In this document: piece after piece, positions 1-12,954 of the stretch
Layout: the number at the start of each line of letters is the position of its first letter
Numbering within the stretch: the first letter of the stretch is position 1
Source: Candidatus Zipacnadia bacterium
Lineage (GTDB): Bacteria; Armatimonadota; UBA5377; JALGUK01
Direction: 5' to 3'
NCBI GenBank assembly: GCA_029820875.1
Contig: JALGUK010000020.1
Location: 1-13,648 of the forward strand
DNA length: 13,648 nucleotides
The notes under the pieces: generated by a model
What the model saw: the letters and a program-made list of their open reading frames with translations, nothing else
What the model was told of the DNA's origin: nothing
Database searches by the model: none
Made by a program: the position numbers and the translations under genes

Positions 1-688
1 ACTGTTATGGTTGACCTTCGACCCGATGAAATTGCAGACCGAAATCTCCGCCAACCGCCCGTCACGGATGACCGTGATATAAGCCGTAACCTTCTCTGGC
101 ATCTCCGAGGCGATGGGGCCAAGTACGAGCGCCACGGCCACTGCGTTGATTCCAATTTGCTCCGCCAGGCGCAGCATCGAGTCCACGAATGGATCGGAGA
201 AGACAACAACAACCACCGCACCCGCAAAAAGCGCCAGCCCCGCCTTCAGCAGGCGCCCTCTGGATGGAGGGTTCCGCACCGTTCCGGAGAAACCCCGTGC
301 TTCGCGTGCGACGTGGTAAATGTACATCCCGAACAGGGCCAGGAGAACGCCTGCGTCTTTAAGGTCGAATCCCCCCCCCTCCCAGGCCAACAAAAGGGCG
401 ACAAGGGCCGTCACCAGCAGGTAAATCGCATCAATTTGTGTCGCCTTGGACAACTCGACGGCTTTCACTGGATGCCGACTGACGCGGCTGGTGGCCAATA
501 GCACAACCGAACCGTACCCGAGGGTCACCAGCAGCGTACATGCGCGGCAGTGTTGTAATCAGGCCAAGGAGGATGCTCCCCGCGAAGTTGCGTCCATATT
601 TCTCCGCAAAAGTTTCCGCCCCATAGCTCAAAAGCCACGCGGCGCTCGCAATAATAAGCAGCAGGGCCGTAAACTCAAATGCGACCAT
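1..688 (-). pseudogene. Sodium/calcium exchanger-family membrane protein, internally deleted and frameshifted, cut by the left edge
   Basis: Intact CaCA-family exchangers swap cations across the membrane through two alpha repeats. The ATG at 686-688 follows a good AAGGAG ribosome site 6 bases upstream. The first 48 residues read as an N-terminal hydrophobic helix leading into the alpha-1 motif GLITTLP. That frame then leaves the family pattern and stops near 431. From about position 543 the next frame continues the protein (TLLVTLGYGSVVLLATS and further hydrophobic segments) to the window edge without a stop. It includes an alpha-2 motif with GPIASEMPEK and GSKVN. The alpha-1 acidic residue after LP and the glycine/asparagine half of that repeat are absent, so the junction at about 538-547 looks like a deletion with a frame change, not a simple one-base indel. 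It lies 35 bp after rtcB, probably in the same transcript. An assembly error is the alternative. Confidence 0.75.
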
Positions 689-2209: not shown

Positions 2210-2833
2210 TTACGTCTCCGGCTCCACATTTTCCGGAACGTCAGGGGTACGGCGCGTCGCTATGCGGCAACACACACATTCATCGCCCCCGAAGACCAGT
2301 TCGCCGCACCGAACACACGGGCGCCAGCCGTGTTGCTGACGCCACCTATCCAGGCGCATCTGTGCCACAAGAAGACGCTGGACCATTGGGGCCAGCTCAG
2401 GCGCAGTGGCCTTCGCCGCTTCAGCAACAGCGGCTTTTTCCTCATCAGTGAGCGCGACGGCCTCAAGTTCCTCGCGCGCAGGATGAGGCGCTGCTCTCTC
2501 CTGCTCGTCCTGCTCGCTGGACTGCACCCGGCCGCGTGTGCTGAACCGTATCTCGCGGACTACGTTACCGCCAAGCTTGTCATTCAGCCGCTGACGTATC
2601 TCGCCTTCGTGCAGCGCAAGCTCCTGGGCCCACGCCGCACCTTGCGTCTTTACATAAAGAACCCCGCGGTCTACCCGGATGACTTCCGTCTTGGCGGCGA
2701 CCGCCTTCCCTACTACATCTTCCCACACAACCGCCGCCTGCTCCTGTCGTGCCCTATCCCACAATCCCAGACCGCGCAGAAGGCCCTGGACGGCTTCTCC
2801 GGCGGTACCTACCCGGCTGTCCCGCTTCAACAT
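2210..2833 (-). CDS. DciA-like protein (DUF721) with a C-terminal zinc ribbon
   Basis: DUF721/DciA proteins take part in loading the replicative helicase DnaB in bacteria that lack DnaC or DnaI loaders. Residues about 12-100 carry the DUF721 pattern: a helical start with LGL, VVWEDVVGKAVAAKTE, the strand segment GVLYVKTQGAAWAQEL and an NDKLGG ending. An acidic, alanine-rich linker and a helical segment follow (about 105-168). A four-cysteine cluster then follows: C173 and C176 in CVRC, and C186 and C189 in CVCC, as in a small zinc ribbon. At 207 residues it is longer than a minimal DUF721 protein. The start ATG lies in ATGTTGA, overlapping the recF stop by 7 bp, so translation is probably coupled. 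The neighbourhood (recF, dnaN, dnaA) supports a replication role. The domain call is good; helicase loading is inferred from the family. Confidence 0.85.
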   Translation of the reverse strand: MLKRDSRVGTAGEAVQGLLRGLGLWDRARQEQAAVVWEDVVGKAVAAKTEVIRVDRGVLYVKTQGAAWAQELALHEGEIRQRLNDKLGGNVVREIRFSTRGRVQSSEQDEQERAAPHPAREELEAVALTDEEKAAVAEAAKATAPELAPMVQRLLVAQMRLDRWRQQHGWRPCVRCGELVFGGDECVCCRIATRRTPDVPENVEPET

Positions 2834-3948
2834 GTCCGTTCCACCCGTCCTTGCTCCACCTGAAACACCGCCATCGCGCGAGTAGCCGGGTCGTCGAGAA
2901 CGTGTGCGTCCGTCGCAGTCAGCAACACCTGGTCGGCTGTATCGGCCAACTCCAATACGCCCATGGCGCGCCGCTGGTCCAGCTCTGAAAGGACGTCATC
3001 AAGCAAGAGCACAGGAGCCTCCCCGAGCCGCTCATCTGCAAGTTGAAACTGCGCCATCCGCAGCGCGATTGCAGCGGTTCGCTGCTGCCCTTGTGAGGCG
3101 AAACGCCGACCGGACCGCCCCCGGATATAAATTCCAAAATCGTCCCGGTGCGGACCGAGGATGGTCATGCCACATCTCAACTCCTGCAAGCGACGTGCAG
3201 CCAGTTCCTCGACGAGACGCTCAGCCGCAGCAGATGGCGCCTCTTGTGTATCAACGCTGAAGCTCGGTCGGTACCTCAGTGTCAGCGTCTCACTTGCTCC
3301 TGCGAGTCTTTGATAGACGGAGGCCGCTGACTTCTCCAGAGCGCCCAAGAACTCCATTCGTGCGGATACCAGCGCAACGGCATACTTCGCCAGCTCGCAG
3401 GTATAAGCATCCAATGCCGTCGTATCGCCTCGGCCTTCGGCAACGTGCCGTAGCATCTCGTTTCGCTGTCGGACGACCCGCCGGTAGCGGGCAAGATCGT
3501 CACAGTACCTCGCAGACAGCTTGCTAATCTCAACATTGAGCATCCGCCGGCGAACGGCCGGCGCTCCTCGAACAATCTCTACGTCCATAGGGCTGAAGGA
3601 GATGACCGCTGCCTGCCTCATCACTTGCGAAAGTTGCCTGGCCGGGGTCCCATTGACCGCAAACGACTGTCGAGAGCGCTTCGAAATGCGGACGCTCAGC
3701 TCAACGGTGGCCCTCTGCTTCCTTTGAAAACGCGCGTATACGGCTCCCTCATCCCGGCCCCATTGTACAAGCTCCTCGGGGCGTGCTCCGCGTCCGGATC
3801 GAGTCGTTGAGGCGACCTCAACAGCTTCCAGTAAGTTGGTCTTACCTTGCCCGTTCGCACCGACTATGAGAACCACACCCGGAGGAACCTCAAGCACGAG
3901 GTCGGCGTAGTTGCGGAAATTATGGAGCTTCAGGCGGTCAAGAACCAT
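2827..3948 (-). CDS. recF: DNA replication and repair protein RecF
   Basis: RecF is an ABC/SMC-like ATPase that binds gapped DNA and helps RecO/RecR load RecA during recombinational repair. The 373 residues fit the family. They show a Walker A motif GANGQGKTN at about 30-38, right after the typical start LDRLKLHNFRNY, then SFSPMDVEIVRGAP at about 118-130 and GPHRDDF at 265-271. The ABC signature region SQGQQRT lies at 285-291, and the Walker B/D-loop segment LLLDDVLSELD at 314-324. The gene begins 57 bp after dnaN and its stop overlaps the next gene by 7 bp, placing it in the dnaN-recF-dciA unit. gyrB, often found next in other bacteria, is absent here. Nothing suggests damage. Confidence 0.97.
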   Translation of the reverse strand: MVLDRLKLHNFRNYADLVLEVPPGVVLIVGANGQGKTNLLEAVEVASTTRSGRGARPEELVQWGRDEGAVYARFQRKQRATVELSVRISKRSRQSFAVNGTPARQLSQVMRQAAVISFSPMDVEIVRGAPAVRRRMLNVEISKLSARYCDDLARYRRVVRQRNEMLRHVAEGRGDTTALDAYTCELAKYAVALVSARMEFLGALEKSAASVYQRLAGASETLTLRYRPSFSVDTQEAPSAAAERLVEELAARRLQELRCGMTILGPHRDDFGIYIRGRSGRRFASQGQQRTAAIALRMAQFQLADERLGEAPVLLLDDVLSELDQRRAMGVLELADTADQVLLTATDAHVLDDPATRAMAVFQVEQGRVERTC

Positions 3949-4005: not shown

Positions 4006-5112
4006 TCATATAATTTGCATCGGCATCAGGACGTAAACATACCCAGACTCATCAACAGGCCGAACCACGCCGGGGTTCAGCGCTCCGGTAAGCTCTATCT
4101 GCACTTGTTCTGAATCGAGAATCTCCAGAGCCTGCAGGAGATACCGCCCATTGAACGCAATCTCAATATCCTCACCCTCCAACTGTACCGGGGTCTCCTC
4201 ATGGGCCGAGCCGACATCCTGGCTGTCCGCGTTCAGAGAAAGAGTCTCGCCATCAGTTCTGAAGATAACCCGGTTTGCATCCTCACGGGCCACCACTATG
4301 ACCCGCCGGAGGGCATCCTGCAGCGTTTCCCGATCAATAGTGAGTTTCTTGTCCCAGGAACTTGGAATCACCTTCTCATAATTTGGGAACTGCCCCTCAA
4401 TCAGCCGCGACCATAGCGTGACATGCGGCAGCTCAAACTTGACATGCGTCGCACCGACACTCACGCTCACTTCCTCATCCGCATCCTCATCCAGAATACG
4501 AGCAAGTTCGGTAAGCGCACGGACAGGGACAATTACTCTGCGTTCCTCCTCCACCTGCACATTTCCCTCTGCTTCAGTAAGAGCAAGCCGATGCGTATCC
4601 GTAGCCACAACATGGAGACGCTCAGGTGCCAAAACGAAAAGTGCACCTGTAAGAATCGGCCGCGTTTCATCGGCTGAAGCTGCAAAGGATGTCTGCTCAA
4701 TCGCCCGCCTGAGTGCCCCTTGCGTAATGGTAAAAGTTGCACCCTCATCCACATCCGGCACCGTAGGAAATTCCTCTGCAGGTAGGCCCCTTATAGCATA
4801 GTCTGACCGCTCGCATGTAATCTTTGCAGTACTGGAATCGTCCACTTCAATGGTCACAGAGGCCTCGGGCAGATTGCTAATAACCTCGAGAAGTATTCGC
4901 GCTGGAAGTGTCACCGCACCGGACTTCTGGATATCCGCATCCACACTCGCGCTCATGCCTATTTCCAGATCTGTCGCAACCAAGCGCATTCCTTCGCCGG
5001 CGGCATCTATCAGAAGGTTAGTCAGAACTGGAAGAGTAGTTCTGGATGAGACGGCTCTCGCAACAGTCTGCACGCCCCCAAGAAGCACGTTGCGATCACA
5101 AGCGACTTTCAT
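4006..5112 (-). CDS. dnaN: DNA polymerase III beta subunit (sliding clamp)
   Basis: The beta clamp is a ring-shaped dimer that tethers DNA polymerase III and many repair proteins to DNA. The 368-residue protein has the usual three-domain length. It starts MKVACDRNVLLGGVQTVARAVSSR, contains TLPVLTNLLI and the ATDLEIGMS stretch of domain I, and has ATDTHRLAL in domain II. It ends with VYVLMPMQII, a variant of the conserved C-terminal MPMRL-type peptide that helps form the partner-binding pocket. The ATG at 5112 has G-rich Shine-Dalgarno-like sequence upstream, but its spacing is not ideal. A 290-bp spacer separates it from dnaA, and recF follows after 57 bp. A sigma70-type promoter candidate sits just after the dnaA stop, so dnaN need not depend on dnaA transcription. 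Confidence 0.97.
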   Translation of the reverse strand: MKVACDRNVLLGGVQTVARAVSSRTTLPVLTNLLIDAAGEGMRLVATDLEIGMSASVDADIQKSGAVTLPARILLEVISNLPEASVTIEVDDSSTAKITCERSDYAIRGLPAEEFPTVPDVDEGATFTITQGALRRAIEQTSFAASADETRPILTGALFVLAPERLHVVATDTHRLALTEAEGNVQVEEERRVIVPVRALTELARILDEDADEEVSVSVGATHVKFELPHVTLWSRLIEGQFPNYEKVIPSSWDKKLTIDRETLQDALRRVIVVAREDANRVIFRTDGETLSLNADSQDVGSAHEETPVQLEGEDIEIAFNGRYLLQALEILDSEQVQIELTGALNPGVVRPVDESGYVYVLMPMQII

Positions 5113-5169
5113 TGCCTGCCGTGACCCCCCTTGAAGCTATTGCGGTCTTCAAATAAGCTATACCGTGAA

Positions 5170-5178
5170 TTATCCACA
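5170..5178 (+). promoter_or_regulatory. Perfect DnaA box TTATCCACA
   Basis: It is identical to the high-affinity E. coli-type DnaA box. It lies between dnaN and dnaA and is followed about 22 bp later by the AT-rich tract. A chance match is unlikely at this location but not excluded. Confidence 0.75.
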
Positions 5179-5366
5179 GACCAACTGCTGTACTACGACG
5201 TTTCTAACAGCTATATATAAATACCATCGTAGACACCGTAGAGCTTGTGGAAAGGGACAACAACTGGTGTCCGAGGCTTATTTGCAGGTAGTGTGTGTTG
5301 TTAGTAACTATTGAGGAAGCAGTGTAAAACGTCGGCTTTGTCAACAGGGCCTGTATCAACATGCTT

Positions 5367-5395
5367 AGTTTACACAGCCTTCCCCAAAGAGTCAA
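5367..5395 (-). promoter_or_regulatory. Candidate sigma70-type promoter for dnaN
   Basis: Reading leftward, TTGACT (5390-5395) is separated by exactly 17 bases from TAAACT (5367-5372). It sits 8 bp after the dnaA stop and about 250 bases before the dnaN start. The -10 hexamer overlaps a one-mismatch DnaA box (5368-5376), so DnaA could repress it. The -35 has five of six and the -10 four of six consensus bases. Confidence 0.5.
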
Positions 5396-5402
5396 CAAGT
5401 TG

Positions 5403-6803
5403 TTAGGAGCCACGTAGTCTTGCCCGCAAGTCCATTATCTGGCTGCGAAAATTGGGGTCCGAGTCAATCATCTCGCGAATTTTGTTGTAGCTATGTAATA
5501 CCGTTGAATGATCTCGGCCTCCAAATGACGCACCAATATCAGGCGTTGAACTGTCAGTCAGCTCTCTGGTGAGGTAGATGGCGACTTGACGCGCCAAAGC
5601 AATCTGTTTGTTCCGCCGTTTCCCCTTGAGGTCCTCCGTGTCCAGGTGATAGTACTCGCTGACAACACGCTGAATGTTGTCGATTGAGGCATGTTCAGAA
5701 TTCTCGCCGGTCGAGTAGTCCCGCAATATCTTCTCAGCTATTTCCAGCGTAACTTGGGTATTGTTCAACGAGGCATAAGCAATTACCTTTGTCAATGCAC
5801 CTTCAAGAATTCGGATATTGGACTGAACCAGGTCAGCAATGTAATCGAAGACCTCGCTGGGGATGTCCACCAACTCCCCTTCGGCCCTCTTTTCCAGGAT
5901 TGCGCGCCGCAACTCGCGGTCCGGGCGGCCGATATCGGCTACGACACCCCATTCGAAGCGGGAGCGGAGGCGATCATCCAGTAGTTGAAGGTCCTTGGGC
6001 GGCACATCGCTTGAGACTACAATCTGCTTGTTGGTCTCGTAGAGGGTGTTAAATGTATGGAAGAACTCCTCCTCCGAGCGCGTCCCCTCTCTGGCCGCGA
6101 TGAACTGGATGTCATCCACGAGCCAGATGTCCACGTTGCGGTACTTGCTCCTGAAAGCACTGGTCCGCTTTTCCCTGATAGCGGTGACAACGTGGTTGAC
6201 GAAGTTCTCACCTGATATATACACAACGGTGAACTCAGGATGCTCAGCCAGGACATGATGGCCTATTGCTTGCATCAGATGCGTCTTGCCGAGGCCGACG
6301 CCACCGTGGAGAAAGAAGGGGTTATAGGAGTCGGAGGGGTTCTGTGCAACGGAATGTGCAATTGCGTGGGCGAACCGGTTGCTTTTCCCCACGATGAAGT
6401 TCTCAAAAGTGTACCTCGGATTGAGACCCATCGAGGGAAACGCATCGCGGGCTGGAGCTGCTTGCTTTTGCTGTGGAACCTCGGTATCTAGTGGTGCGGG
6501 AGTGTCTTCGGGTGGCTGTTCGCCCGGGCTTACCACGAAGTCGACCGTAACGGAGTTCCCGATAAGTTCACTGAGACAAGCCGCCACCAGGGATGCGTGA
6601 CGTTCTTCCAGCCAGTTCTTGGCCAGCTCGCTACTGACACCCAGTACGACCCGGTCATCATCAAACACAAGCGGCACTGCATCTCGCAGGTAGGCATCGA
6701 ATGTGACCCGGCTCATTCGGTTCTCTAAAGCCCGTAGGGCTGAGTACCACACATCCCGGGCTCGTTTCTCGGTTCCAGTATCTGCTCCCGCCACAATCAT
6801 CAC
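5403..6803 (-). CDS. dnaA: Chromosomal replication initiator protein DnaA
   Basis: DnaA binds DnaA boxes at oriC, oligomerises with ATP, melts DNA and recruits DnaB. The 466 residues show all domains. Domain I is at about 14-90 (VWYSALRALE through NWLEERH). A short proline/glutamine-rich linker follows at about 92-128. The AAA+ domain has Walker A GGVGLGKT (167-174), Walker B WLVDDIQF (227-234) and RLRSRFEWG (278-286), which contains the arginine-finger region. The C-terminal DNA-binding domain has the signature GASFGGRDHSTV (424-435). After Walker B the stretch AAREGTRSEEEFF appears about two residues longer than the common AGKERTQEEFF. The start is uncertain: GTG at 6803, the adjacent ATG at 6800, or GTG at 6794. 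A GGAAGG site lies close upstream and best fits 6794. An ATPase-HTH gene precedes it by 113 bp. Confidence 0.97.
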   Translation of the reverse strand: MMIVAGADTGTEKRARDVWYSALRALENRMSRVTFDAYLRDAVPLVFDDDRVVLGVSSELAKNWLEERHASLVAACLSELIGNSVTVDFVVSPGEQPPEDTPAPLDTEVPQQKQAAPARDAFPSMGLNPRYTFENFIVGKSNRFAHAIAHSVAQNPSDSYNPFFLHGGVGLGKTHLMQAIGHHVLAEHPEFTVVYISGENFVNHVVTAIREKRTSAFRSKYRNVDIWLVDDIQFIAAREGTRSEEEFFHTFNTLYETNKQIVVSSDVPPKDLQLLDDRLRSRFEWGVVADIGRPDRELRRAILEKRAEGELVDIPSEVFDYIADLVQSNIRILEGALTKVIAYASLNNTQVTLEIAEKILRDYSTGENSEHASIDNIQRVVSEYYHLDTEDLKGKRRNKQIALARQVAIYLTRELTDSSTPDIGASFGGRDHSTVLHSYNKIREMIDSDPNFRSQIMDLRARLRGS

Positions 6804-6916: not shown

Positions 6917-7732
6917 TTACTCGCCTCCGCGAATCAAAAGCTCGAAGTTGGCCAGTGCATACTCCGACAACTCGCGCTTGCCCTTGGAGCCTGTGACCAC
7001 CAGACCCATTCGTTCCAGTTTCTCCAGCAGCCGGTGGGCCGTGCTGATACTGACTCCCAGCGCCTGTGCCGCTGCGCTCGGACCCCCTTTCTGCTCCTCC
7101 CCCAGGAGCAGGAGGACCTTCTTCTCGCGCTCCGAAAGCTCAGTGGGTGCGAGTTCCGAGGCCCTCGCACGATTTGGGGCTGTCCCGCTCAGCTTTACCA
7201 CAGTTCCCCCACCGAGATTATCGTCGATACTGAGAGCCCCGCCGTCGGCGGCTGCACTCTCGCGGGCCAACGGAAGGCCGGCCCCGACGCCTCGAATATG
7301 CTCCCTAAGCGACGCCGTCGCCGTAGTGTAGCCCGGCAGAAGCGCCTTTTCCTTGTCGGCGATCCCCGGCCCGCGGTCAGTGACGATGACCTCGTTGCCC
7401 CCTTCGGTGACGATGATGGACGCATCGCGAAAGTCCGCATGAAACAGATTCGATATAATCTCCCGCAGCGCCACCATTGACACTTGCCCGCCCAGTTTGG
7501 TCGCAATTTCGAGGACCACGCGCGTGGCCCTCTCAACAAATGAGTCAAGCGGGGCCACAGGGACATCCGTAATGTGGACTTTTTCGGAGGGTGACTGGCA
7601 AGCGGCGACTCTGACCACGCCATACGATGGCTCAAGCTTTGGGTTGCCGTGGCGAACGACTCGGACCGTTGCCTTTCGTATTGCCTGGACAGGTTTCCCG
7701 CGTTTCGTCACAACCATTCGGGGTTTTCCCAT
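6917..7732 (-). CDS. GHKL-type ATP-binding protein fused to a helix-turn-helix domain
   Basis: I do not recognise a characterised protein. The first 60 or so residues are basic and strand-like, with no membrane segment or signal peptide. Residues about 62-183 form a HATPase fold of the GHKL group (histidine kinases, anti-sigma kinases, MutL, gyrase). The N box is at REIISNLFHAD (E91, N95), the G1 box at TDRGPGI (D119, G121, G123) and the G2 box at GVGAGLPL (148-155). GGGTVVKL closes the fold. No HisKA domain or obvious phosphoacceptor histidine is present. Residues about 195-262 look like a winged helix-turn-helix (LSEREKKVLLLL, then SAAAQALGVSISTAHRLLEKLERMGLV). The start ATG at 7732 is the first in its frame after a stop; its GGAGG lies 14 bases away, which is long. 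Its position between the putative origin and dnaA suggests a regulator of replication or a cell-cycle switch; that is inference. Confidence 0.85.
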   Translation of the reverse strand: MGKPRMVVTKRGKPVQAIRKATVRVVRHGNPKLEPSYGVVRVAACQSPSEKVHITDVPVAPLDSFVERATRVVLEIATKLGGQVSMVALREIISNLFHADFRDASIIVTEGGNEVIVTDRGPGIADKEKALLPGYTTATASLREHIRGVGAGLPLARESAAADGGALSIDDNLGGGTVVKLSGTAPNRARASELAPTELSEREKKVLLLLGEEQKGGPSAAAQALGVSISTAHRLLEKLERMGLVVTGSKGKRELSEYALANFELLIRGGE

Positions 7733-7800
7733 CGAAGGCTTCTCATCCTCCGCGAAAAGGGCTTGAATTCAGCCTGAAACAGGAGTGGAAAACCGGCAGT

Positions 7801-7809
7801 TTTTCCACA
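7801..7809 (+). promoter_or_regulatory. DnaA box TTTTCCACA
   Basis: Perfect match to TTWTNCACA, 68 bp upstream of the ATPase-HTH start. It lies within the likely leader of that gene, so it may regulate the gene as well as belong to the origin. Confidence 0.7.
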
Positions 7810-7856
7810 GAAGATTCGCGGCAGATAGTGAAAACTTTTCAGGTGCAGAAAAGTGC

Positions 7857-7885
7857 TATTTAGCCTGTGGAAAAAGGAATGTCAG
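7857..7885 (-). promoter_or_regulatory. Weak promoter candidate for the ATPase-HTH gene, spanning a DnaA box
   Basis: Reading leftward, CTGACA (7880-7885) and TAAATA (7857-7862) are 17 bases apart. The -35 has five of six and the -10 only three of six consensus bases. A perfect DnaA box (7866-7874) fills the spacer, so DnaA binding would block RNA polymerase if the promoter is real. Confidence 0.3.
7866..7874 (-). promoter_or_regulatory. DnaA box TTTTCCACA (reverse)
   Basis: TGTGGAAAA on the plus strand is the exact reverse complement of the box at 7801-7809. It lies 56 bp from that box, facing it, inside a weak promoter candidate. Confidence 0.7.
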
Positions 7886-7942
7886 GCGCTCTGCAAAAAA
7901 GCCCATGAATCGGAACTAAATGGGTTGCGTCTGAGGGGCTTT

Positions 7943-7952
7943 GACCGCGGTC
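7943..7952. repeat. 10-bp perfect palindrome GACCGCGGTC
   Basis: A self-complementary 10-mer in the middle of the box-bearing region, 51 bp before the main DnaA box cluster. It could be a dimeric regulator site. A single copy in GC-rich DNA may also arise by chance. Confidence 0.35.
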
Positions 7953-8003
7953 GGCGGGTGCGATGGATGCTGCGATAAGCCGTTGAATGCGGCGCCGGGG
8001 ACG

Positions 8004-8035
8004 TTTTCCACACAGTTTTCCACAAGTGTGGAAAA
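8004..8035. promoter_or_regulatory. Cluster of three DnaA boxes, two as a perfect inverted pair
   Basis: TTTTCCACA occurs at 8004-8012 and 8016-8024 on plus, and its complement at 8027-8035. The last two lie in a perfect inverted repeat with 10-bp arms and a 2-bp centre (8015-8036). Three exact copies in 32 bp is far from random and is typical of a DnaA-loading site. Confidence 0.85.
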
Positions 8036-8041
8036 CATACC

Positions 8042-8053
8042 GGAAGGCCTTCC
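8042..8053. repeat. 12-bp perfect palindrome GGAAGGCCTTCC
   Basis: It starts 6 bp after the last DnaA box of the cluster. It does not resemble the ParB parS site. It may be a binding site for a dimeric origin regulator; function unknown. Confidence 0.45.
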
Positions 8054-8157
8054 AAGACGCAACCGAGTATAGCAGAATTCATGCTACACCTCAACCCCAC
8101 CGGGCAAAAAAGATGCCGTCATTCACTCAGCGGCCATGCCAATTGCGGGCCGGCGCG

Positions 8158-8186
8158 TTGACCACGCTGTGCCCCTGTGGTAGAAT
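8158..8186 (+). promoter_or_regulatory. Sigma70-type promoter of glmU
   Basis: TTGACC (8158-8163), a 17-base spacer, then TAGAAT (8181-8186). Both hexamers have five of six consensus bases. Transcription would start near 8193, leaving a leader of about 20 bases before the ATG at 8215. The AGGAAGGG ribosome site (8201-8208) lies inside that leader. Confidence 0.8.
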
Positions 8187-8214: not shown

Positions 8215-9627
8215 ATGAGAGGGTTGCAATGTGTTATCCTGGCGGCAGGACAAGGGAAGCGGATGAAGTCGAAGCTCCCGAAGGTGCTTCATCCCTTGAT
8301 GGGGCGGCCGCTTATAGAGCGCGTGCTCGGGGCTGCTAATGCGCTGGAGGCGGAAAAAACGGTTGTGGTTGTGGGCAAGGACGGTGAAGCGCGGATTCGG
8401 GCGGCGCTTGCGACTCGCGAAGGCCTGCAGTTCGTCCTTCAGGACCCTCCGCTGGGGACAGGCCACGCGATGACACAGACAAGGCCGTTTGTCGGTGACG
8501 GCGATGAGGACCTGGTTGTGCTGTGCGGCGATGCGCCTCTTTTGACTCGGGAAACGCTGATGCGGCTGGTAAAGCACCATCGCGCCACACGGGCGGCATG
8601 TACCGTGCTGACCGCCATGCCTGCGGACCCGTTCGGATACGGCCGGATCGTGCGCGACGAGGCGGGTCGCGTCCTGCAAATCGTCGAACACCGGGACGCC
8701 ACGCAAGAGCAACTATCCATTCGTGAAATCAACACCTCGATTTACTGCTTCCGCTCCGCCGACCTGTTTGACGCCCTCGAGACACTGCGGCCGGACAATG
8801 AACAGGCTGAGTATTACCTTACGGACGTAATCGCCGCCCTTGTAGCCTCCGGGAAACCCGTTGAAGCCTTAATGACGCAGGATTCGGACGAGGCCGAGGG
8901 CATCAACACACGCGCACAGCTCGCGCGGGCCGAGGCAGTGCTGCGCCGTAGAATCAACGAGGGGTTGATGCTTTCCGGGGTCACCATCGTTGACCCGGAC
9001 AATACCTACATTGAGGACAGGGTGACAATCGGGCGCGACACCACCATCCTGCCGGGTACCGTTCTGAAGGGGCACACGAGCATCGCTGAGGATTGCCAGA
9101 TCGGGCCGTATTGCACGCTCGAAGACGTCATCGTCAATGAGTGCTGCCAGGTGAAGGCCTTCTGCGTCCTCGAGGGCGTGAGGCTCAGCCCGGGGGCGCG
9201 AGTCGGGCCGTTTTCGTATCTGCGCCCCGGCACGGTCATCGGCGCGGAAGCCCACGTAGGCGCGTCTGTTGAGATTAAGAACGCAATCATCGGCGAGCGG
9301 GCCAGGGTTATGCATCTGAGCTATTTGGGCGACTGCGAGGTCGGCCCCGACACCAATATCGGTGCCGGGACAATTACCTGCAATTATGATGGTCGCACCA
9401 AGCACCGTACGCACATCGGCAAGCAGGCGTTTATAGGCAGTGATACGATTCTGGTGGCCCCGGTAAGCGTCGGAGATGGGGCCATGACCGCTGCGGGGTC
9501 CGTAATCACTCATGATGTGCCCGACGACTCACTGGCAATCGCGAGAGAGCCGCAGACAAACAAGGAGAACTGGGCCCGCCGCTGGCGTGAAGCCGCTGAG
9601 AAGAGAGGCAAGGGCAAGAACCAATAG
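8215..9627 (+). CDS. glmU: Bifunctional GlmU: glucosamine-1-phosphate acetyltransferase / UDP-GlcNAc pyrophosphorylase
   Basis: GlmU makes UDP-N-acetylglucosamine in the cytoplasm for peptidoglycan and other glycans. It acetylates glucosamine-1-phosphate and then adds UMP. The 470 residues have the normal length. The N-terminal pyrophosphorylase has LAAGQGKRMKSKLPKVLH (9-26), DPPLGTGHA (77-85), metal-binding D106 in LCGDAPLL, and N231 in EGINTRAQ. The C-terminal left-handed beta-helix runs from about 255. It contains YLRPGT, the catalytic-type His367 in HLSYLGD, GAGTITCNYDG (383-393) and LAIAREPQ. The ATG at 8215 has AGGAAGGG 6 bases upstream; the open frame extends further upstream to 7987, but without family similarity. 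It is divergent from the ATPase-HTH gene across the putative origin and is followed after 34 bp by a Gfo/Idh/MocA gene. Confidence 0.97.
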   Translation: MRGLQCVILAAGQGKRMKSKLPKVLHPLMGRPLIERVLGAANALEAEKTVVVVGKDGEARIRAALATREGLQFVLQDPPLGTGHAMTQTRPFVGDGDEDLVVLCGDAPLLTRETLMRLVKHHRATRAACTVLTAMPADPFGYGRIVRDEAGRVLQIVEHRDATQEQLSIREINTSIYCFRSADLFDALETLRPDNEQAEYYLTDVIAALVASGKPVEALMTQDSDEAEGINTRAQLARAEAVLRRRINEGLMLSGVTIVDPDNTYIEDRVTIGRDTTILPGTVLKGHTSIAEDCQIGPYCTLEDVIVNECCQVKAFCVLEGVRLSPGARVGPFSYLRPGTVIGAEAHVGASVEIKNAIIGERARVMHLSYLGDCEVGPDTNIGAGTITCNYDGRTKHRTHIGKQAFIGSDTILVAPVSVGDGAMTAAGSVITHDVPDDSLAIAREPQTNKENWARRWREAAEKRGKGKNQ

Positions 9628-10540: not shown

Positions 10541-11293
10541 TTATCGGGGTTTTTGGGCCAGGATGAGCAACTTCCGATGGCTGTCGAGAAACGGCCGCTG
10601 GTCATAGTCGCCGTACAGCTCCAGAACCCTCAGGCCTGCTGCGGCGAACATGTCCATGAACTCCTCAGGCGAATAGAGTCGGATGGCGGACTCGGCATAG
10701 AGTGTCTCCGGAGGCCCGATTCGCGTCCAGCGGCTCTTTAGTTGGCGGGAAACCGGGTCGTAGAATACCCGCACGAGCGCCTGGTCGCCGTCGGCCAGCC
10801 GCGTTGGCGCGCTGAAGGGCACTCCCGCGATCTGGAAATTCTTGTTACGCGTCTCCAGCAGGAGCCGTCCGCCCGGCCGGAGGCACCGGGCCATCTCAGC
10901 GAGCGCGCGGCGGTCGTCGGCGGGGTCGTCGAGGTAACCGAAGCTGTTGAAGAGGTTGAGAACGATTGTGAAAACGCTGCGGAACGGAATCTGCCGCATG
11001 TCCGCGCGCACGATGAAGGGATAACCGCCGGCCGCGGGCTTCTTGGCGGCGGCCTCGCGTGTGAACGCAACCGAGCGGTCAAGCCCCACAACGCGTAGAC
11101 CCGCATCGGCGAGAAGATGTGCGTGGCGGCCGTCCCCGCAGCATACGTCGAGGATAAGGTCCGAGGAGCGGGGCGTAAGCAGCTTGAGAAGGGACTCCAC
11201 TTCCCAGAGCGTTTCCGCCGCGTCGGGGAATACCCCCAGTTCCCGACAATCGGGAAGCTCAAAGAAATCTTGCCACCATTGTCGTTCCGGCAT
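10541..11293 (-). CDS. Class I SAM-dependent methyltransferase
   Basis: A predicted soluble methyltransferase of unknown substrate. The 250-residue protein has motif I as LDVCCGDGRHAHLLAD (48-63), the acidic end of strand 2 at VVGLDRS (68-74), RADMRQIPF (96-104) and the post-motif LRPGGRLLLET (138-148). The strand 4 region reads FTIVLNLFNSFGYLDD, where many relatives have an acidic residue before the strand. I start at the ATG at 11293 (MPERQWWQDFF), 10 bp after the response regulator stop. A longer reading from 11338 overlaps that gene and adds a non-conserved leader. The weak ribosome site suggests translation following on from the upstream gene. It converges with the Gfo/Idh/MocA gene, the two stops being only 6 bp apart. 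Confidence 0.88.
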   Translation of the reverse strand: MPERQWWQDFFELPDCRELGVFPDAAETLWEVESLLKLLTPRSSDLILDVCCGDGRHAHLLADAGLRVVGLDRSVAFTREAAAKKPAAGGYPFIVRADMRQIPFRSVFTIVLNLFNSFGYLDDPADDRRALAEMARCLRPGGRLLLETRNKNFQIAGVPFSAPTRLADGDQALVRVFYDPVSRQLKSRWTRIGPPETLYAESAIRLYSPEEFMDMFAAAGLRVLELYGDYDQRPFLDSHRKLLILAQKPR

Positions 11294-11303
11294 CGCGCGG
11301 TCC

Positions 11304-12311
11304 CTAATGCGTTTCGAAGAGGTCCTCCATGGCGACAAACTCGTCGGACGGGCGGTTCATGTCAGGTGTGGTATCCTCAGCCGGTGCGGTGAGCACACCC
11401 GCGGCCTGTACCGCCAGGACGTTCATCAGGTCGGCATCGTCCCCCGTGAACGGTCTGGACGCCTTGTCATAGAGGCTTAAAGCCCCTGTGACCCGGCCGC
11501 GCATCACAATTGGAACGACCAGTATCGAAGACGGGTGTCCGGGCGGTAGCGGGCTGGCCGTGTCCGTGAGCTGGTTGTCCACAACCACCCGCGCCAGCCT
11601 CGCTGCTTCGGTCGCGAGCCGGAGAGCTTCGTCAGCGGTTCCGTGCGGCCCTCCCGCAAGATAGCCGCCGCAAGCGACGCGCGCCGTCAATGAGCCATCG
11701 GGTTGCATTTGGAAGATATGGCCGCCCGCAGCGCCGGTGAGCGCACATGCACGCTGCAGAATCAGACTCAATAGCTCGCCCGCATCCGAGTTGCCGGCCA
11801 TGTGTTTGCCAAGCTCAATCAGGGAAGTAAGCTCTTCGGTGGCAACCTCGAACTTCTCTTCCAGGCGTTTCTTGTGTGTCATCAACTGCCGGGTGGCGTC
11901 CTGCAGCTCCCGCAGCAGGCGGACGTTCTCCATCGCCAGGCGCTGCCTCTCCAGCCCGCGCTCGACAATCCTGACCATGTCATCGGCGTCGAACGGCTTG
12001 CGAACGTAGTCGTAAACTCCGTGCTTGACCGCCTCAACCGCCGACTCCAGGTCCGCATAACCGGTTATAACGATGACGCAGGTGTTCGGGTCGGCAGCCC
12101 GCAAGGCCACCACTACTTCCATGCCGTCCATGTCGTCCAGGCGCAGGTCCACCAGGCCGACGGCGAATCGCCCTGGCCTTATCTCGGTGATGGCAGCGCC
12201 GCCGGTTGCGGCTTCCACCACTTCGTAGCCACGCTCTGCGAGGGCCTCGTGGCACACTTCGCGCACGGCAGCGTCGTCGTCCACCAGTAGAACAGACGCA
12301 GGTCGGTCCAT
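11304..12311 (-). CDS. Response regulator with receiver, coiled-coil and GAF domains
   Basis: A two-component signalling protein. The receiver domain (about 5-120) has the acidic pair LLVDDD (8-13), phosphoacceptor D55 in GLVDLRLDD, T83 in ITGYAD, and K105 in VRKPFD. A helical, charged stretch (about 112-168, ENVRLLRELQDATRQL and onward) is probably a coiled coil. A GAF domain follows (about 170-305), with LSLILQRACALTGAAGGHIF and VVPIVMRGRVTGALSLYDK. No DNA-binding, cyclase, EAL or kinase module follows; the last 30 residues look unstructured. It therefore probably acts through protein partners or ligand sensing. The ATG at 12311 begins at the receiver; the frame is open upstream to 12467, but that stretch has no receiver similarity and overlaps queH. 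No sensor kinase is visible in the window. Confidence 0.9.
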   Translation of the reverse strand: MDRPASVLLVDDDAAVREVCHEALAERGYEVVEAATGGAAITEIRPGRFAVGLVDLRLDDMDGMEVVVALRAADPNTCVIVITGYADLESAVEAVKHGVYDYVRKPFDADDMVRIVERGLERQRLAMENVRLLRELQDATRQLMTHKKRLEEKFEVATEELTSLIELGKHMAGNSDAGELLSLILQRACALTGAAGGHIFQMQPDGSLTARVACGGYLAGGPHGTADEALRLATEAARLARVVVDNQLTDTASPLPPGHPSSILVVPIVMRGRVTGALSLYDKASRPFTGDDADLMNVLAVQAAGVLTAPAEDTTPDMNRPSDEFVAMEDLFETH

Positions 12312-12359
12312 CCGGCACCACCGCTCTTTGCACACTGCAATACAGGGGCGCTGACGGGG

Positions 12360-12388
12360 AGTGTAGCGCACCGGCGGGGAAAAGTCAA
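12360..12388 (-). promoter_or_regulatory. Sigma70-type promoter of the response regulator gene
   Basis: Reading leftward, TTGACT (12383-12388) is 17 bases from TACACT (12360-12365). The -35 overlaps the queH stop codon. Transcription would start near 12353, about 42 bases before the ATG at 12311. This supports 12311 over the longer start, which lies upstream of the promoter. Confidence 0.6.
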
Positions 12389-12954
12389 TTGCGTCGGGAT
12401 GCCATGCGGCGATTGCGTTCACGGAGGCTGTAGACGCAGCCGCAGTAGTCCTGCCGATACAGCCCATATTGCTTGCTGAGGGCCACGCTCTTCTGGAAAC
12501 CGCCGTCCTTCTTGAAGTCGGCTACGACAAAGCTCAGGCCGCGGTCGGCGGCAAGCTGGGTTCCTATGCGGTTAATCATCTGTGCGTCCTTGTGGGGGCT
12601 CACCGAGAGGGTTGTTGCAAAGCACTCGAACCCAAGCCGTTTGGCTAAGTCAGCCGTACATTCAAGCCGCAGCCGAATGCAAACCTCGCACCGACGCCCG
12701 CGCTCCGGCTCGTGTTCGAGACCCTCGACCGCCTTAAACCAGCGGTCCGGGTCATATTCCGCCACAATGATGGGCGTTGCGGTCTCGCGCGCAAAATGCT
12801 CTGCATCCTCGAGCCTGCGGCGGTACTCTTGCTCCGGGTGGATGTTGGGATCATAGAAGTGGAAGGTCACGGCATAGTCGTCTCTGAGCACGCTGAGGAC
12901 GTGCGTCGAACACGGGGCGCAACAGACATGCAGCAGCAGACGCGGCTTTTCCAT
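12385..12954 (-). CDS. queH: Epoxyqueuosine reductase QueH
   Basis: QueH carries out the last step of queuosine synthesis, reducing epoxyqueuosine to queuosine in tRNA. It is unrelated to the cobalamin-dependent QueG. The 189 residues match the family (formerly DUF208). They show HVCCAPCSTH (9-18, C11 and C12), YDPNIHPEQEYRRRL (34-48), a second cysteine pair CEVC (C89, C92), FATTLSVSPHKD (112-123) and the end motif YRQDYCGCVYS (C171, C173). The paired cysteines are the expected iron-sulfur and metal ligands. The ATG at 12954 has GGAAGG close upstream. No other queuosine genes are nearby, so the rest of the pathway must be elsewhere or the precursor salvaged. It precedes the response regulator by 73 bp, but that gene has its own promoter. 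Confidence 0.93.
   Translation of the reverse strand: MEKPRLLLHVCCAPCSTHVLSVLRDDYAVTFHFYDPNIHPEQEYRRRLEDAEHFARETATPIIVAEYDPDRWFKAVEGLEHEPERGRRCEVCIRLRLECTADLAKRLGFECFATTLSVSPHKDAQMINRIGTQLAADRGLSFVVADFKKDGGFQKSVALSKQYGLYRQDYCGCVYSLRERNRRMASRRN

Follow-up and report, generated by a model that had tools for sequence, protein, structure and literature searches.

Where does replication begin at this locus, and what part is played in it by a cluster of DnaA boxes that lies between divergent genes, one gene away from dnaA? An earlier note had taken the interval 7784..8053 for a probable chromosome origin. The window, i.e., the whole stretch of DNA analysed here, comprises 13,648 bases, and its genes were assigned from open reading frames (ORFs) together with Pfam and NCBIfam. 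With the DnaA of the window as the query, the closest relatives are found in Candidatus Zipacnadia and other Armatimonadota MAGs (~50–53%), which places the window close to Ca. Zipacnadia (Armatimonadota) as judged by DnaA. The reading we favour, with a probability of about 0.62, is that of an origin region of the bipartite kind in a deep-branching Zipacnadia-like bacterium, in which the region of the boxes would be the control half and the gap between dnaA and dnaN the half that opens.

Gene order, DnaA boxes and putative promoter upstream of dnaA

The leftward genes of the window encode a Na/Ca exchanger, truncated by the window edge, RtcB, DciA (DUF721; 2210..2833), RecF (2827..3948), DnaN (4006..5112), DnaA (5403..6803) and a protein combining a GHKL-type ATPase domain (HATPase_c) with a winged HTH (HTH_IclR), whose gene (816 bp, 6917–7732, minus strand) is the first of a putative dnaA operon. 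Past the boxes, glmU (8215..9627, plus strand) and a gene for a Gfo/Idh-type oxidoreductase run rightward. The ORFs thus bear out the earlier statement that all genes left of the boxes run leftward and the two immediately to the right run rightward. The switch is nevertheless local as a sign of an origin, since leftward ORFs resume at 10.5–13 kb: after the oxidoreductase come, in order, a methyltransferase (10541–11338), a response regulator (11304–12467) and a further ORF (12385–12954), and the switch does not distinguish the interval of the boxes from the dnaA–dnaN gap. The latter two ORFs lie on the same strand and share 83 bp (12385–12467); the true start of the response regulator is probably further inside its ORF. 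The dnaA–dnaN–recF block described as adjacent is present, along with dciA, but the gene at 6917–7732 separates the boxes from dnaA. Rfam and tRNA scans of the whole window gave no matches.

The interval contains a near-match box TTTTCCACT at 7784..7792 (minus strand), exact boxes TTTTCCACA at 7801..7809 (plus) and 7866..7874 (minus), and a conserved triple at 8004..8035, composed of exact copies at 8027 (minus), 8016 (plus) and 8004 (plus), which reads forward-11-reverse-12-reverse on the dnaA strand. All five exact copies in the window lie within 7801–8035, with none elsewhere in it; 0.05 are expected in the whole window, and none of 200 dinucleotide shuffles of it contained at least five, so the reported five exact boxes and one near match in ~250 bp hold good. 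Boxes with at most one mismatch number 13 in the window vs 2.26 expected, a clustering beyond chance of the type that characterizes oriC regions. The 7784 and 7801 boxes also form an inverted repeat with a terminator-like score on the minus (dnaA) strand (7808–7785), which falls within the predicted operon leader; one such repeat was found vs 0.7 expected, and it is either an attenuator or a product of chance.

Beside the boxes (8035–7784) lies a promoter-like site at 8066..8094 on the minus strand (TTGAGG-17-TATACT, its −10 preceded by TG), reading into the 6917–7732 gene and dnaA. This is the arrangement of an autoregulated dnaA promoter, in which the predicted transcript would run through the boxes. 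On the plus strand, a second promoter-like site, TTGACC-17-TAGAAT (8158..8186), reads into glmU.

The conservation of the triple was assessed in dnaA loci from 46 class genomes, giving 49 rows once the window and a second copy each from G025 and G036 are counted; G045, G019, G008 and the second G036 row (G036b) were left out of the count, having too little upstream sequence. Using the pattern forward-11-reverse-11..13-reverse with at most six mismatches across 27 positions, a triple was found upstream of dnaA in 34 of 45 rows (32 of 43 genomes, the window and the second G025 row), and in each of these 34 rows none of 100 shuffles matched as well. The 11 genomes (of 43) in which it is absent are G012, G013, G014, G015, G018, G020, G021, G022, G032, G033 and G044, three of which still outdo most shuffles (G032 and G033, 0/100 as good; G021, 2/100). 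In 31 of the 34 rows, the 60 bp upstream of the triple include a TATACT-like −10, nearly always preceded by TG as in an extended −10, at a distance of 28–45 bp, compared with 22 of 1398 control stretches; no match was found within these 60 bp in G006, G007 and G040. Since the triple is downstream of the −10, the boxes would sit in the leader of the transcript that runs from the HATPase–HTH gene to dnaA. The distance from triple to dnaA is 1.1–1.25 kb in the window and four other genomes that carry the GHKL–HTH gene, and 219–610 bp in the other rows. One of the two dnaA loci of G025 (L132) is near-identical to that of G004 (L131), and G025 is perhaps a mixed bin.

Exact TTWTCCACA boxes, counted in contigs of eight relatives, amount to 26 in the 40 kb that lie no more than 2.5 kb from a dnaA start vs 11 in the remaining 1,062 kb, with G005 the one relative that has none within 2.5 kb of its dnaA start; an equal density of the 9-mer elsewhere, which would have spoken against an origin, is thus not what these genomes display.

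The boxes could be taken to mark a single-site origin in the glmU–HATPase intergenic region, with DnaA opening the duplex at 7784–8053, which is the chief competitor of the bipartite reading although we consider it unlikely. Five exact boxes within 250 bp, the AT-rich stretch 7822–7921 between them, which is among the least stable of the window (top 0.8%), and the flanking divergent genes are in its favour, and it must be conceded to it that the upstream half surpasses the gap in both the number and the quality of its boxes. Against it, the array is missing in the 11 of 43 genomes listed above, a scarcity that also weighs on the bipartite reading, and further objections come from the gap.

The dnaA–dnaN gap

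The gap between dnaA and dnaN (5113..5402), the proposed unwinding half, can be aligned to the trio-bearing gaps of some relatives. Bases 7–271 of 293 align with the trio-bearing gap of G036b at a score of 71 (best of 200 shuffles, 36), and the scores of 70 with G037 and 44 with G003 were each reached by none of 200 shuffles. Of the 15 relatives' gaps tested, seven more give 2–12 shuffles as good out of 200, while the window gap has no clear similarity to the remaining five (29–112 of 200), which counts against the favoured reading. The relatives' gaps present DnaA boxes and then CTA repeats, mostly 3 nt later, with usually 12 nt between the better box and the trio; box, spacer and DnaA-trio is the arrangement published for the basal unwinding system (BUS) in the available text of PMC8287927. 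In the window, the box CTTTCCACA (5246..5254, minus strand, one mismatch) is placed by the alignment as the first box of the relatives' unwinding element and is accompanied by an eroded trio stretch (5224..5245, minus strand), in which two CTA units remain with other triplets between them; on the far side of the element lies the box TTATCCACA (5170..5178, plus strand). A forward/reverse pair of gap boxes 72–76 bp apart is found in the window and also in L001, L004, L006 and L008.

By nearest-neighbour energy, no 100-bp stretch of the window is less stable than 5131..5230, which lies in the gap; the gap also contains the second least stable 50 bp, and gaps are less stable than the upstream array in 26 of 30 rows, which argues against opening at the array. 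Thus, as in bipartite origins, an unstable element lies in the dnaA–dnaN gap and boxes lie on both sides of dnaA (7784–8035 upstream; 5170 and 5246 downstream).

The rule given for the BUS in PMC8287927, as far as the available text states it, asks for three or more NAN trios no further than 16 bp from a DnaA box that has two mismatches at most. It yields zero candidates in the window gap, in which no three-triplet NTN run was found near a box; only two CTA units are left, with other triplets interspersed, and the strict test thus finds nothing. Three trio measures were applied, i.e., an either-strand run score, an in-phase score and a scored published-style rule with a threshold of 4 of the author's own; they disagree row by row, and the scored rule is the one counted here. 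By this rule, 28 of 40 rows with dnaN beside dnaA have a trio element in the gap, vs 1 of 30 array regions scanned on both strands, which is a second objection to a single-site origin at the array. The 12 rows below threshold are the window, G002, G004, G005, G006, G024, G025b, G026, G029, G030, G031 and G046; ten of them display, by eye, interrupted, GTA-type or poorly boxed repeats, and the window and G006 (L139) lack a trio repeat even by eye, a point against the bipartite reading. Because its own trio is eroded, the unwinding site of the window is placed by homology and low stability.

One clade of the DnaA tree, comprising 11 rows, mostly has GTA in place of CTA in the trio, in the same phase after the box. 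The GTA-type gaps are those of G004 and G023–G031 (L109, L111, L118, L124, L129, L131, L134–L136 and L222), and lone GTA units are also seen in G007, G008, G009, G011 and G034.

The eroded trio favours a single-site origin, and it also allows the doubtful proposal that in the lineage of the window unwinding has moved, or is moving, from the gap to the box-rich, AT-rich dnaA-promoter region. The product of such a move would be an origin without trios, in which initiation, dnaA transcription and the GHKL–HTH regulator would be wired at one site.

Genomes with dnaA and dnaN apart, and GC skew

In nine genomes (G009, G010, G011 and G018–G023), which occupy three places in the DnaA tree, dnaN was not found beside dnaA; contig ends in G020 and G022 mean that the two genes may not be truly apart there. 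The trio repeat lies upstream of dnaN in eight of the nine (G009, G010, G011, G018, G019, G020, G021 and G023); the G011 locus ends before a box is visible, and the contig of G022 ends ~230 bp upstream of dnaN. In G023, dnaA precedes the repeat by 2.4 kb, and dnaN follows it 1.8 kb further on. The six separate dnaA contigs that were scanned (G009, G010, G011, G018, G020 and G021) yielded no trio element. The triple is kept beside dnaA in four of the nine (G009, G010, G011 and G023) and missing in G018, G020, G021 and G022, while G019 had too little upstream sequence. This behaviour indicates that the triple is tied to the dnaA promoter, and the trio element to dnaN. An array that remains with dnaA where dnaN and the trio element are elsewhere further weakens the case for a single-site origin.

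The same four genomes, in which the triple stays with dnaA and not with the trio element (2.4 kb apart in G023), together with the −10 that 31 of 34 rows have at 28–45 bp from the triple, would also suit a reading in which the upstream half is an autoregulated dnaA-operon promoter and nothing else, the gap alone being the origin. We regard this as improbable, since the available text of PMC6669920 states that B. subtilis needs both origin halves in vivo, and that of PMC7561715 describes opening of C. difficile oriC2 in vitro only with oriC1 present.

The cumulative GC skew of the window has its minimum at 7537, after a plateau from ~5.0 kb. The minimum is closer to the upstream half than to the gap, a point for a single-site origin and against the bipartite reading, yet skew cannot separate the two halves in the window. 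Among relatives, seven contigs extend 20 kb on each side of dnaA (that of G014 falls short, with 3 kb on one side), and the skew right minus left of dnaA is positive in six of these seven, the exception being G016. The minimum within 60 kb lies 1.7 kb (G005) and 2.2 kb (G001) downstream of the dnaA start, 6.6 kb upstream of it in G038 and 22–58 kb away in G016, G006, G012 and G007; in G014 it coincides with the contig edge. On short contigs of the genomes with separated genes, skew rises from left to right across the trio element in four of four (G009, G018, G021 and G023) and across dnaA in none of three (G009, G011 and G018). Skew therefore backs the origin region loosely, and this looseness is to be held against the favoured reading. 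Box density, the dnaA–dnaN–recF–dciA neighbourhood and the skew rise in six of seven testable relatives together support an origin region well; this part of the earlier claim of a probable origin stands, whereas opening within 7784–8053 lacks such support, the interval being read instead as a dnaA-operon promoter with a box operator. That the boxes merely control dnaA while replication starts elsewhere is very improbable: G016 lacks a skew rise and the minimum of G005 over 400 kb falls at 271 kb, 88 kb past dnaA, but that minimum closes a flat low stretch starting near dnaA, the other six contigs show a skew rise across dnaA at 20 kb, boxes are dense near dnaA, and the conserved gap is still beside dnaN in the window.

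The gene in front of dnaA and the probable kind of origin

At an E-value of 1e-8, the GHKL–HTH gene is present in four of the 46 class genomes (G002, G005, G006 and G007; L081 and L089–L091), and in all five carriers, including the window, it lies between the triple and dnaA. Two of the four carriers besides the window, G006 and G007, are among the rows without a −10 match, which is evidence against the favoured reading. Among the matches listed from 291 phylum genomes, with no more than 8 candidates scored per genome, the closest HATPase–HTH protein is 48% identical; two 87%-identical proteins, P0002 and P0003, are represented solely by database entries. By source names, homologues occur in Actinomycetes, Coriobacteriales and Thermoleophilia, under labels that vary from anti-sigma regulatory factor and histidine kinase to HTH regulators, with most entries nameless. 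Invariant in 30 aligned relatives are E86, N90, H93, D114, G116, G118, G143, G145 and G147, which we take to be the N and G boxes of GHKL ATPases. The protein matches no NCBIfam model at the curated cut-off. Its predicted structure (mean pLDDT 81.9, pTM 0.57) matches ATPase domains of the histidine-kinase type as well as a protein from C. diphtheriae with no named function; structure comparison gave no good full-length match, and the near match G051 covers the ATPase part alone.

In the DnaA tree, the carriers are five of the six deepest-branching class rows, and the gene is absent from a derived clade of 42 rows. An insertion in the lineage of the window was considered and dropped, since all five carriers fall outside this clade, for which an old gene lost once is the simpler account. 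Long branches in the tree speak against a single loss, as do the four label changes, a count matched or undercut by 64 of 500 shuffles and one that scores as lacking the gene both the outgroups and G008, whose contig begins inside dnaA. From the position of its gene, first in the putative operon and ahead of dnaA, one would naturally guess that the protein regulates either initiation or the expression of dnaA; among the papers listed, none was relevant to such a gene with dnaA, dnaN, oriC or anti-sigma factors.

Taken together, the locus is most likely an origin region of an already known, bipartite kind, with the interval 7784..8053 as its dnaA-promoter half. The available text of PMC6669920 for B. 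subtilis and of PMC7561715 for C. difficile describes unwinding in the dnaA–dnaN gap with participation of the upstream cluster, and PMC8203912, in its available text, describes regulation by DnaA of its own promoter in several bacteria. By analogy, the interval would most likely be both the control region of the dnaA operon and the upstream half of a bipartite-type origin: the stretch 7784–8094 would provide the promoter and leader of an operon from the GHKL–HTH gene to dnaA, DnaA bound downstream of the −10 probably represses or paces its own synthesis, and the same half may also act in the origin by looping. The DNA itself would most likely open ~2.5 kb from these boxes, at ~5130–5255 in the gap, where DnaA would load from a box and open the AT-rich duplex.

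The likeness to oriC of B. subtilis and C. difficile, where oriC1 precedes dnaA and oriC2 occupies the gap, lies in boxes on both sides of dnaA, a gap that is the least stable site, boxes at the dnaA promoter and, in relatives, trio elements in the gap; unlike in these origins, the window has the GHKL–HTH gene between the upstream half and dnaA, glmU flanking that half, an eroded trio, and a box triple of near-fixed spacing downstream of the −10. Relatives with boxes and CTA repeats resemble the basal unwinding system, from which the window departs in having no three consecutive trio units and one clade in having mostly GTA (3′-CAT-5′) instead of CTA (3′-GAT-5′). Boxes in the dnaA promoter region are shared with the autoregulated dnaA promoters of E. 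coli and B. subtilis described in the available text of PMC8203912, whereas here the triple lies downstream of the −10, dnaA is the second gene after the promoter, and the regulation is putative. The window protein is akin to other GHKL-type ATPases with a winged helix in its HATPase_c and HTH_IclR domains and differs in the placement of its gene before dnaA.

Little literature was found on Armatimonadota origins, and what was found on Zipacnads makes no mention of dnaA or an origin of replication; for Fimbriimonas, a partly available source describes few boxes and a scattered placement of dnaA, dnaN and recF. Genomes of the class in which the dnaA-promoter boxes and the unwinding element are naturally separated bear on the purpose of the upstream half of a bipartite origin.
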